The translations under genes were made by a program, and so were the position numbers. Under the pieces are notes generated by a model, which made no database searches, was not told the origin of the DNA, and saw only the letters and a list, made by a program, of their open reading frames with translations. 64,000 nucleotides of DNA from Actomonas aquatica. Its GTDB lineage: Bacteria > Verrucomicrobiota > Verrucomicrobiia > Opitutales > Opitutaceae. Below, piece after piece: positions 14,506-28,466 of the stretch (the stretch's first letter is position 1; each line of letters starts with the position of its first letter). The stretch covers positions 620,001 to 684,000 of the forward strand of contig NZ_CP139781.1 in NCBI RefSeq assembly GCF_019679435.2, written 5' to 3'.

Positions 14506-16875
14506 TCAGTTCAGCTCGCCCTGCAGGGTCACGGAGCCACCGGCCGCCAGCACCACGTCCGTGGTTTTATCCCCTACGCGCAGCTTCGCGGTGCCGCCCT
14601 TGGCGGACCGCAGGTTGACGGTCTGCACCGCGCCGTCCTGCCAGGTGAGATCGATTTCAAATCCGCCCCGCACCCGCAGGCCGCGAACGCTGCCGTTTGG
14701 CCATGCCGTCGGCAGTGCCGGCAACAGCACGATCTCGCCGGTGTGGCTCTGCACCAGCATCTCGCAGATGCCGGCCGTCGCGGCGAAGTTGCCGTCGATC
14801 TGAAACGGCGGATGGGCGTCAAAGAGATTTGGATACACGCCGCCGCCGCCCTTCGACTTGCGCGTGACCGGATCGTCGCGCACCAGATTCAGCTGATTGA
14901 GCAGGATCTTGTGCGCATGATCCCCGTCGAGAAAACGGGCCCAGAGACTGATCTTCCACCCCAACGACCAGCCGGTGCCACCGTCGCCGCGAAATTCGAG
15001 CGACTGCTGCGCGGCCCGCATGAGGTCTGGCTGCGACCAGGTGATGTCCTCGCCCGGAAAGACGCCCCAAAGATGCGACACATGGCGGTGATTGTTGGTC
15101 GGGTCGTCCTTGTCCTCCAGCCACTCCTGTAGCTGGCCGTGCTGACCAATCTGATTGGGCGCGATGCGCGCCGCCATCGTGGTCAACTGCGCGGCGAATT
15201 CCGGATCGAGATCCAACTCGGCCGCTGCCTCCGCCGTGGCACCGAACAAGGCGCGAATCAGCTGATGGTCCATCGTCGGCCCCATCACGAGCCCGCCGTG
15301 TTCCGGCGAGTTGGACGGACCGCTGATAAGCCGGCCGGTCGTTGGATCCTCGACCAGGGTTGCGACAAAAAATTCCGCCGCGCCTTTCATCGCTGGGTAA
15401 GCGCGTTCGGCCAGGAAGGTGCGGTCGCCGCTGAAGCGCCAATGTTCCCAAAGGTGCCAGCTCAGCCAAGCGCCGCCGGTTGGCCAAATGCCGTGGTTGG
15501 CATGATTGATGGGAGCGGTGCCGCGCCAGCCGTCGGTGTTGTGATGCAACACCCAACCCGGCGCGTTGTAGTGCGCCTGCGCGGTCTTGGCCCCGCTGAT
15601 CTCCAGATCGTCGATCATGGCAAAGAGCGGCTCCGCGCACTCGGAGAGATTGGCGACCTCGGCCGGCCAGTAGTTCATCTCCAGATTGATGTTGGTGGTG
15701 TATTTGCTGCCCCACGACGGTTTGGTTAGGTCGTTCCAGATGCCCTGGAGGTTAGCCGGAGCGCTGCCCGGGCGGCTGCTGGAAATGAGCAGGTAACGCC
15801 CGTAATTGAAGAGCAAGGTGGCCATCGCCGGATCGCCGGATTTGTCGGCCTGCTCGAGACGCACATCGGTGGGCTCCGCCGCGATGGCGGTCGAGCCCAG
15901 GTCCAGTTCCACCCGATCATAGAGCGCCGCGTAGTCGGCCACGTGGGCCGCGCGCAGGTCGGCATAGGATTGGGTCGCCGCTGCCGCCAGCGCCTCGGCA
16001 CAACGCAGCTCGGGCGCACCGTCGATATCGTCGAACCGTTGGTAAGCCGAAGCGCCGGTGATCAGCACGGTCACGGCATCGGCCTGGTCGATGGTGATGC
16101 CGTCCGGTCCGATGGACGTGCGACCGCCTTCGGTCAGGACCTTGAGGCGGGCCGCAAAAATCAAACCGTCGCCGCCCACGCGTCCCGAAAGATGGAGCTC
16201 GTTGCCGACCAAACGCACCACGTAGTTGGGATGCACCGTGCTGAGGCGCACCGTGCCACTGATCGCGCCAGCCTGATTGGCGCTGAGGTGTTGGACGATC
16301 ACCTGATCCGGCGCGCTGGAAAACGTCTCCCTCGTATAACTCACCTCGCCCACCCGATACTTCACCGTGGCGACGGCGGTGTGCAGATCGAGGTCGCGCA
16401 CGTAGTCGGTGGCGCCCTCATGGCCCGGCAGGCTGAGGTGCACGTCACCAAGCGGCTGATACATCATCTGGCGCAGCGGCTCGCTCATGAATTCGCGCAT
16501 GGCCAGTTCCTCGGCGGCATCCTGTTCGCCAGCCCAGAGCAGCCGACGAATCTCCGGCAGCACCTGATACGCGCCTTCGCGCTGATATTCGTGCGGGCCA
16601 CCGCTCCACAAGGTGTCCTCGTTCAACTGGAGATGCTCTTCCGCCGGGGCACCATGCACCATGGCCCCGAGCCGGCCGTTGCCGACCGGCAAGGCTTCCG
16701 TCCACACCGCGGCGGGTTGCCGATACCACAGGCGCGAGGTGCCGGTGGCGGCGAAGGCAGAGGTGCTCGTCACGGCACAAGCGGCAACCGTGGCTACGAG
16801 CGTGAGCGAGTGGCGGGAGCGACGGAGCCACTCGCTCACGCTCGTAGCCACTTGGGGGATCAGGGAAAACGTCAT
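14506..16875 (-). CDS. GH95 alpha-L-fucosidase / alpha-L-galactosidase
   Basis: A 789-residue GH95 enzyme. After the leader, the N-terminal domain opens with LWYRQPAAVWTEALPVGNGRLGAMVHG (residues about 48-74). The catalytic (alpha/alpha)6 barrel has NLQGIWNDLTKPSWGSKYTTN followed by NLEMNYWPAEV (the Asn pair that assists the nucleophilic water), SGPSNSPEHGG (candidate general acid Glu) and NNHRHVSHLWGVFPG. In pectin, GH95 members act on alpha-L-fucose or alpha-L-galactose. The signal peptide is odd: residues 9-29 ([15 protein letters not shown]) are encoded by a palindromic element, and its last residues supply part of the hydrophobic core before AACAVTSTSAFA. The start overlaps the esterase stop codon by 4 bp. 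Confidence 0.93.
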   Translation of the reverse strand: MTFSLIPQVATSVSEWLRRSRHSLTLVATVAACAVTSTSAFAATGTSRLWYRQPAAVWTEALPVGNGRLGAMVHGAPAEEHLQLNEDTLWSGGPHEYQREGAYQVLPEIRRLLWAGEQDAAEELAMREFMSEPLRQMMYQPLGDVHLSLPGHEGATDYVRDLDLHTAVATVKYRVGEVSYTRETFSSAPDQVIVQHLSANQAGAISGTVRLSTVHPNYVVRLVGNELHLSGRVGGDGLIFAARLKVLTEGGRTSIGPDGITIDQADAVTVLITGASAYQRFDDIDGAPELRCAEALAAAATQSYADLRAAHVADYAALYDRVELDLGSTAIAAEPTDVRLEQADKSGDPAMATLLFNYGRYLLISSSRPGSAPANLQGIWNDLTKPSWGSKYTTNINLEMNYWPAEVANLSECAEPLFAMIDDLEISGAKTAQAHYNAPGWVLHHNTDGWRGTAPINHANHGIWPTGGAWLSWHLWEHWRFSGDRTFLAERAYPAMKGAAEFFVATLVEDPTTGRLISGPSNSPEHGGLVMGPTMDHQLIRALFGATAEAAAELDLDPEFAAQLTTMAARIAPNQIGQHGQLQEWLEDKDDPTNNHRHVSHLWGVFPGEDITWSQPDLMRAAQQSLEFRGDGGTGWSLGWKISLWARFLDGDHAHKILLNQLNLVRDDPVTRKSKGGGGVYPNLFDAHPPFQIDGNFAATAGICEMLVQSHTGEIVLLPALPTAWPNGSVRGLRVRGGFEIDLTWQDGAVQTVNLRSAKGGTAKLRVGDKTTDVVLAAGGSVTLQGELN
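16789..16851. repeat. In-frame palindromic element, 63 bp, copy A (GH95 leader)
   Basis: GTGGCTACGAGCGTGAGCGA plus GTGG (16790-16813) is exactly complementary to 16828-16851, a perfect 24-bp inverted repeat around a 14-nt loop. With the flanking C at 16789 shared by all three copies, the unit is 63 bp, that is 21 codons. Copies B and C are at 24878-24943 and 28373-28441. Confidence 0.93.
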
Positions 16876-27900: not shown

Positions 27901-28466
27901 GAGTGGCGGTAGGAGCCGACCGGATTGCGTTCGTGGAAGGTGGTGGCGTCGGGTTTGGGTTCACCCATCACGCGCGGCGGATCGACTTTGAACGAATAAC
28001 CGGCGCTCACGTAGATCGGCGTGCCGAAACCATGACGTTCCCAGTTGCCCGGCACCGGAATGGTGCCCCACCCCGCGTCGTCAAAATCTGGGCGGAAAAA
28101 GTCGGCGGGGGCTTCGGCCGGCGTGGGCACCCAGGCAAAGGTCCAGTCGCCATCCAACACCCGCACGAAGGGCGACTGGTCTGCCTCGCGCACACTCACG
28201 TGCGTCCGGGCGGAAGCGGCATCGGCGAAGGGATAAAAGGTGGCGCGCGCCGGCTCGCGGTTGACGGCAAAAATCTGCTCGTTTTCCCAGCGCGGTGGCG
28301 TGGCGGCGGCGGCGGCGGCGGCGGTGGCAATCCCCAACCCCAAGAGCGCAAGACACGCGAGTTGCAATAACCCGTGGCTACGAGCGTGAGCGAGTGGTCG
28401 GTGGGATGGGCACGGAGCCACTCGCTCACGCTCGTAGCCACAGCAGGAATGAAAACCCGAGTTCAT
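24999..28466 (-). CDS. GH2 beta-galactosidase, LacZ type
   Basis: A 1155-residue exported LacZ-type enzyme. Domains in order: jelly roll ([35 protein letters not shown]), Ig-like, TIM barrel with [33 protein letters not shown] (acid/base Glu) and [11 protein letters not shown] (nucleophile Glu), a fourth Ig-like domain and the large beta-sandwich with [11 protein letters not shown]. It should release beta-galactose from galactan or arabinogalactan side chains. The start at 28466 overlaps the SSS stop codon by ATGA. Its leader carries palindromic copy C in a different frame ([19 protein letters not shown]), followed by a good core ([19 protein letters not shown]). Confidence 0.94.
28373..28441. 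repeat. In-frame palindromic element, 69 bp, copy C (LacZ-type leader)
   Basis: Arms 28374-28397 and 28418-28441 are identical to those of copy A and perfectly complementary; the loop is 20 nt. With the shared flanking C the unit is 69 bp, 23 codons. It is read one base shifted from copies A and B and still has no stop codon. Confidence 0.93.

Follow-up and report, generated by a model that had tools for sequence, protein, structure and literature searches.

As described in the main text of Di Nocera et al. (2013; PMC3733652), the GTAG repetitive extragenic palindromic (REP) elements combine a GTAG or GTGG tag with a short stem-loop, form head-to-head and tail-to-tail dimers and lie mostly behind open reading frames (ORFs). 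The same text singles out Opitutus terrae as the genome with the most intragenic GTAG REPs, most of its GTAG-20 elements carrying the GTGG tag, and reports that REPs can supply genes with TAG stop codons and that N-terminal REPs may or may not be translated. REPINs, as described by Bertels and Rainey (2011; PMC3116915), consist of two inverted REPs separated by a variable spacer and folding into one hairpin, and single copies occur as well. Here we analyze a family of palindromic repeats of which three copies lie in the leaders of three glycosidase genes of Actomonas aquatica, in a polysaccharide operon situated within a 64,000-nt stretch of contig NZ_CP139781.1 (positions 620,001 to 684,000 of the forward strand; hereafter the window). 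An initial annotation of this stretch had likened the repeats to the Rickettsia palindromic elements (RPEs), which Ogata and colleagues reportedly described in 2002 as in-frame palindromic inserts in proteins, and had proposed that they target secretion leaders. We favor a different reading, to which we assign a probability of roughly 0.8: the three copies are GTAG-type REP dimers of the kind found behind stop codons, which operon compaction has placed in the leader of the next gene, which have been kept in frame and which form part of two predicted signal peptides.

The repeat is built on a 24-bp arm, GTGGCTACGAGCGTGAGCGAGTGG, which occurs as inverted pairs in the leaders of three minus-strand genes encoding a GH95 enzyme, a GH2 enzyme with a sialidase-type domain (GH2-sialidase) and a LacZ-type GH2 enzyme (Table 1). 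An arm search of the window at up to three mismatches returned six matches, all within the three dimers, as compared to none in 100 shuffles. The three palindromes are thereby confirmed as real, in frame and far beyond chance, with the 24-bp arms and the loops of 14, 17 and 20 nt already given by the initial annotation. The unit lengths that it gave (63, 66 and 69 bp) are those whose deletion keeps the reading frame; the inverted repeats themselves measure 62, 65 and 68 bp, lengths whose deletion breaks it, and one unpaired flanking C, common to all three copies, accounts for the difference. Translation from the upstream ATG also reproduced the predicted frames (two copies read in one frame, the third in another), and the reading frame stays open through the dimer in all three leaders. 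The fact that all three loops are 2 modulo 3 is weak evidence when taken alone, because each arm is stop-free in two of its three frames and several loop lengths fit. The three loops differ in both sequence and length.

By its described features, as opposed to published consensus sequences, we identify the arm as the monomer of a GTAG-type REP, two copies of which form each palindrome in a head-to-head, REPIN-like arrangement. The monomer begins with a GTGG or GTAG tag, unpaired in the predicted folds, and continues with a CNRC..GC....GC..GYNG stem-loop (a stem of 4+2 bp with an internal loop); one of the two tags was present in 154 of 179 arms, in a scan that favors that tag. Compensatory changes support the stem. 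Indeed, of the 62 cells that columns 6-23 and 7-22 form across 31 variants, 57 are paired, a level reached by none of 2000 shuffles; the search seed fixes all columns except 3, 6, 7, 14, 15 and 22-24, which makes these two pairs, together with free column 24, the testable part of the structure. In 12 chosen variants, 98.6% of the cells pair, covariation is 0.331 versus 0.154 (0 of 500 shuffles) and slid structures collapse. A first guess at the stem (pairs 4-18 to 9-12) was rejected because column 6 varies without compensation, and was replaced by the predicted fold. The elements are also multicopy, mostly intergenic, located downstream of ORFs and rare in divergent intergenes, and the inverted doublet recurs as a discrete unit with a variable spacer (nine dimers, see below). 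As for its spread, the 21-base arm core (at most one mismatch) was found in 15 of 100 genomes of the family, including that of A. aquatica, and in none of the three other genomes drawn from the genus. A broader pattern, GTRGCNRCGAGCGNNAGCGAGNNG, was found in 22 of the 100 genomes (reversed control: 0), with 246 copies in G043, 118 in G067, 107 in G091, 78 in G016, 43 in A. aquatica and four in its congener G090.

The distribution of the family within the A. aquatica genome (6.1 Mb) gives the leader copies their context. The genome holds 52 arms (28 + 24) at up to three mismatches, as compared to none for the reversed control. At up to four mismatches, the fetched stretches contain 55 arms grouped in 46 units, namely nine dimers (six with tags outside, three with tags inside) and 37 singles; 41 units are intergenic, two overlap a stop codon and three are the leader copies. 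Over the whole genome, the positions and lengths of the copies do not support a targeting of leaders: most are intergenic, and the dimers range from 62 to 68 bp without all falling into one class modulo 3. The units are instead enriched behind stop codons: 19 of the 43 outside the window lie at most 40 nt behind one (random intergenic positions: 14.1%; p = 1.7e-6), and divergent intergenes hold only three of the 46 units (23.8% expected). Relatives show the same tendency (22 of 77 units at most 40 nt behind a stop, versus 14.2%; p = 8e-4). In another count of units in relatives, 66 of 68 fell outside the genes called by the gene finder. For twelve of these 66, a 5' extension of a gene could include the unit; of the 11 that were translated (L240 was left out), only L196 and L201 resembled interrupted signal peptides.

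Several single arms are embedded in larger repeats; dimers, by contrast, resemble one another no farther than the arms themselves or some 20 nt beyond them. At genome positions 2022760-2023324 (L067), a unit of about 270 bp occurs three times head-to-tail, with one arm in each unit and 92-93% similarity between units. Two other copies contribute stop codons. At 708554-708577 (L061), a sulfatase-modifying-factor-type protein with a seemingly PEP-CTERM-like tail owes its final residues and its stop codon to a single REP; at 5977904-5977968 (L090), the GTAG tag of a dimer gives the TAG stop of a GH20 gene.

In the operon, the distance from the stop codon of the preceding gene to the dimer is 20 nt (GH95), 55 nt (GH2-sialidase) and 21 nt (LacZ-type), and the dimers start at +25, +43 and +26, respectively (A of the ATG being +1). 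These distances are in the enriched range of the family, and the GH95 and LacZ-type genes overlap the preceding gene by an ATGA (16872-16875 and 28463-28466, respectively); the dimers therefore fall inside the leader of the next gene. At 47 of the 185 testable stops in the fetched stretches, a same-strand next gene covers most of the interval from +21 to +83, that is, a 62-nt element placed at +21. Because so many stops are closely trailed by a gene, three leader copies among the 22 units found at most 60 nt from a stop need no targeting.

Table 1. REP dimers of the window with their host genes and the genes preceding two of them (coordinates are those of the window).
Feature	Coordinates	Strand	Description
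REP dimer, GH95 leader	16790..16851	-	arms 16790-16813/16828-16851, exact; 62 bp, loop 14; head-to-head; in frame
REP dimer, GH2-sialidase leader	24879..24943	-	arms 24879-24902/24920-24943, one mismatch each; 65 bp, loop 17; in frame
REP dimer, LacZ-type GH2 leader, n-region	28374..28441	-	arms 28374-28397/28418-28441, exact; 68 bp, loop 20; in frame
GH95 gene	14506..16875	-	Pfam PF22124, E 2.6e-171; ATG overlaps TGA of upstream gene
GH2 + BNR_2 (sialidase-type) gene	20873..24985	-	Pfam; ATG 13 nt behind preceding stop codon
LacZ-type GH2 gene	24999..28466	-	Pfam; ATG overlaps TGA of upstream SSF transporter gene
Gene upstream of GH95	16872..17969	-	weak glucuronyl esterase and peptidase S15 matches; stop 20 nt before first dimer
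SSF transporter gene	28463..29959	-	Pfam; stop 21 nt before third dimer

The reading that we favor draws on the sequence, frames, copy number and positions of the elements, on the covariation of their stem and on parallel cases described below, and it can be put as follows. The REP family would prefer, or survive in, the region directly following a stop codon, in which its hairpin could occupy the 3' end of an mRNA. In a polysaccharide operon whose genes overlap or nearly touch, this post-stop site would coincide with the N-terminal leader of the next gene. Leaders would accept many stop-free inserts and, since each arm is open in two frames, a dimer whose loop has a fitting length could stay in frame. 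Once translated, the dimer would give the predicted signal peptides of GH95 and GH2-sialidase their basic residues and the beginning of their hydrophobic core; in the LacZ-type enzyme, only the n-region would become longer. The route by which the elements would have moved is itself inferred.

To assess the contribution of the dimers to the leaders, the hydrophobic core was defined as the 10-residue stretch of best hydropathy, and the position of the dimer ahead of the cleavage site was judged by eye. Removing 63 nt lowers the best value for GH95 from 2.54 to 1.95, and removing 66 nt lowers that of GH2-sialidase from 2.21 to 1.88; in both cases the frame is kept and no basic residue is left before the core. 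By contrast, the LacZ-type value (2.54) is unchanged after removal of 69 nt. The claim that the first two copies supply part of the hydrophobic core agrees with these figures, since the best stretch includes the dimer-encoded LVAT in both, and no dimer residue in the LacZ-type leader. The predicted signal peptides of GH95 and GH2-sialidase hence seem to be partly REP-encoded, which is new here; translation from the upstream ATG and secretion would both have to hold for this. A wider proposal would be that REP dimers provide the material from which signal peptides are made: a basic and a small or hydrophobic stretch encoded by their open frames (SEWLx..., or RFFRGAAL in the tail of the transposable element described below) would rebuild a working signal peptide after insertion, and these bacteria would thereby repeatedly swap or lengthen the leaders of hydrolases, each of which would gain an mRNA hairpin. 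We regard this proposal as tentative and, on balance, doubtful.

Comparable insertions were found in other genomes. G043, which belongs to another genus, contains a repeat resembling a miniature inverted-repeat transposable element (MITE), with CTAGTGCAGCG ends, that carries the same REP dimer (32 pattern matches). Thirty of these loci were fetched (L358-L387); the far end was found in 25, with a length of 133 bp in 14 loci and 129 bp in five. In two of the 30, the MITE runs in frame through a leader, that of a sulfatase (L201/L368) and that of an acid phosphatase (L196/L365). Removal of 129 nt yields MSKLGGLLVCLAGLGVAADS for the sulfatase and VKTPRSLRTTAVLGLVLTGLAGG for the acid phosphatase, both signal-peptide-like, the second with a GTG start only. 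Nineteen relatives of the acid phosphatase were fetched besides the G043 gene and 15 were looked at; the leaders of the 12 that were written out have no MITE. Outside leaders, single arms lie in frame at one linker site of a DUF455 gene (e.g. VAASASEW) in G031, G026, G131, G067, G173 and G091. Among 30 fetched loci of DUF455 orthologues, one (G031) has an arm, one (G043) has another insert and 28 have neither. In-frame capture of REPs is recurrent and not confined to leaders, because it is encountered both in the MITE-bearing leaders of G043 and in the DUF455 linker. This linker is also a hot spot for in-frame REP-like inserts across several genera (L253:1142-2455, L249:997-2496, L312, L316-L325).

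A number of observations weigh against the reading proposed here. With respect to translation, initiation might also take place at GTG codons within the dimers or, in the LacZ-type gene, at a TTG behind it, in which case the dimer would not be translated in full. Homologue searches revealed no empty site for the three genes, with the limits that the LacZ-type gene was not searched for, that the GH2-sialidase protein was searched in the genus (eight genomes including its own; best match elsewhere 52% identical over residues 987-1315 only) and that the GH95 scan covered the 80 best-scoring of 591 loci, none of which exceeds 61% identity even in its best segment. Nor is the GH95 leader set apart by its length: over these 80 loci, 77 of which have an in-frame ATG, the farthest ATG lies at a median of 35 residues and at 44 residues or more in 21, as compared to 47 in A. 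aquatica. With respect to the family, monomer fold energies are only weakly below those of shuffles (z from -0.7 to -1.5), and the 12-variant test scored no higher than shuffles on two measures out of five, namely changes on both sides of a pair and further pair types. With respect to positions, the p values are optimistic, since genes were called with a Markov gene finder built ad hoc and tandem duplicates among the units were counted as independent; relatives show no excess within 25 nt behind a stop (8 of 77 units versus 9.2%; p = 0.41); and for six of the 41 intergenic units of A. aquatica, the frame of a called gene stays open in the 5' direction as far as the unit (in five cases no ATG precedes the unit, and the remaining one is an arm with four mismatches). 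One of the six, the arm at genome positions 4426797-4426820 (L078), could give a small gene that has a later hydrophobic stretch its GTG start and its first codons (VATSVSEW). Finally, one strand carries three of the nine dimers in a span of 12 kb, a tighter grouping than our reading would predict.

To these points must be added that no cognate REP-associated tyrosine transposase (RAYT) was found among 70 loci, which represent 55 distinct genes out of 84 Y1_Tnp matches. At up to six mismatches, the arm was absent from the first 42 Y1_Tnp loci (38 distinct genes). Exact arms occur in two of the 70 loci, both in G016 (L352 and L356), and three more loci have 3-mismatch matches only. Both G016 candidates were rejected: the L352 RAYT has a dimer about 110 bp away and is surrounded by GTAGCGCAGGC repeats, and the arms of L356 are more than 1 kb away from a RAYT flanked by other repeats. 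In A. aquatica itself, the Y1 transposase genes L032 and L034 have short repeats on both sides (AAGGGGTCAGGCTTTGTAG... and AAGGGGTCATGTCGTCACC...), unlike the arm.

How do other explanations fare? That a mobile element targets secretion leaders, as originally proposed, is suggested by the presence of three leader copies in one operon and by the two leaders of G043 into which the REP-bearing MITE has inserted. Yet leaders hold only three of the 46 units, the others being intergenic or overlapping a stop codon, the units of the relatives lie almost all outside called genes, and the leader copies themselves fit the post-stop rule; we consider such targeting very improbable. A different possibility is that the dimers are untranslated, the true starts lying inside or behind them, and that the hairpins act on the mRNA as those of any intercistronic REP would. 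The text of Di Nocera et al. (PMC3733652) suggests as much for many N-terminal REPs, the predicted dimer hairpins reach -54.1 kcal/mol for GH95, -44.8 kcal/mol for GH2-sialidase and -55.3 kcal/mol for LacZ-type, and the TTG mentioned above would offer the LacZ-type gene an alternative start. Set against this, the ATGA overlaps point to the upstream ATG as the expected start of the GH95 and LacZ-type genes, translation from the upstream ATG meets no stop codon in any of the three leaders, and without 63 or 66 nt the GH95 and GH2-sialidase leaders lose their basic residues and have a weaker core. We therefore judge it unlikely that the dimers are untranslated.

An effect of the dimer hairpins on the operon mRNA is plausible in view of the predicted folds. 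A stronger version, compatible with the post-stop origin and in-frame retention that we propose, holds that selection has maintained the hairpins because together they control translation or mRNA stability in the polysaccharide operon. The clustering of three dimers on one strand, all starting 25 to 43 nt into their genes, would fit; however, their loops are unlike in sequence and length, nothing tested points to regulation, and positions 14000-30000 of the window contain no Rfam family at gathering score, which leaves shared control quite unlikely.

The placement of post-stop REP dimers in leaders suggests a route by which extragenic repeats can enter proteins without any preference for coding sequence, compaction turning a 3'-end repeat site into a leader site. 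It also offers examples, open to experiment, in which a selfish repeat would provide a working targeting signal, and cautions annotators against shifting the start codons of such genes without evidence.

In the literature collection searched, no paper joins Opitutaceae with repetitive extragenic palindromic elements, REP, signal peptide and in-frame combined gave only items that looked unrelated, and, among the matches listed, other searches led on this subject only to PMC3733652 and PMC3116915; in the main text of PMC3733652, 'leader' is absent and 'signal' occurs only in other senses. As to known systems, the likeness to RPEs holds insofar as a palindromic repeat is inserted in frame in protein genes (the frames are open, and we infer their translation), in three leaders here and again in G043. 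It fails in that the host differs, most copies here are intergenic and the nearest relatives lie elsewhere, the two elements being likened by description and not by sequence. Like the REPINs described in PMC3116915, the family includes inverted REP doublets with a variable spacer along with single REPs; by contrast with Pseudomonas fluorescens SBW25 as reported there, singles outnumber dimers (37 versus 9) instead of the reverse, and no cognate RAYT was found in the loci screened. With the O. terrae GTAG REPs as presented in PMC3733652, it shares the tag, the stem-loop, the dimers, the post-ORF site, the supply of a TAG stop and the intragenic copies, GTAG-17, -19 and -20 being compared by description alone and not by consensus sequence. 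The nearest described relatives are thus GTAG REPs rather than Rickettsia palindromic elements: the type of repeat is already known, and its apparent role in signal peptides is new.

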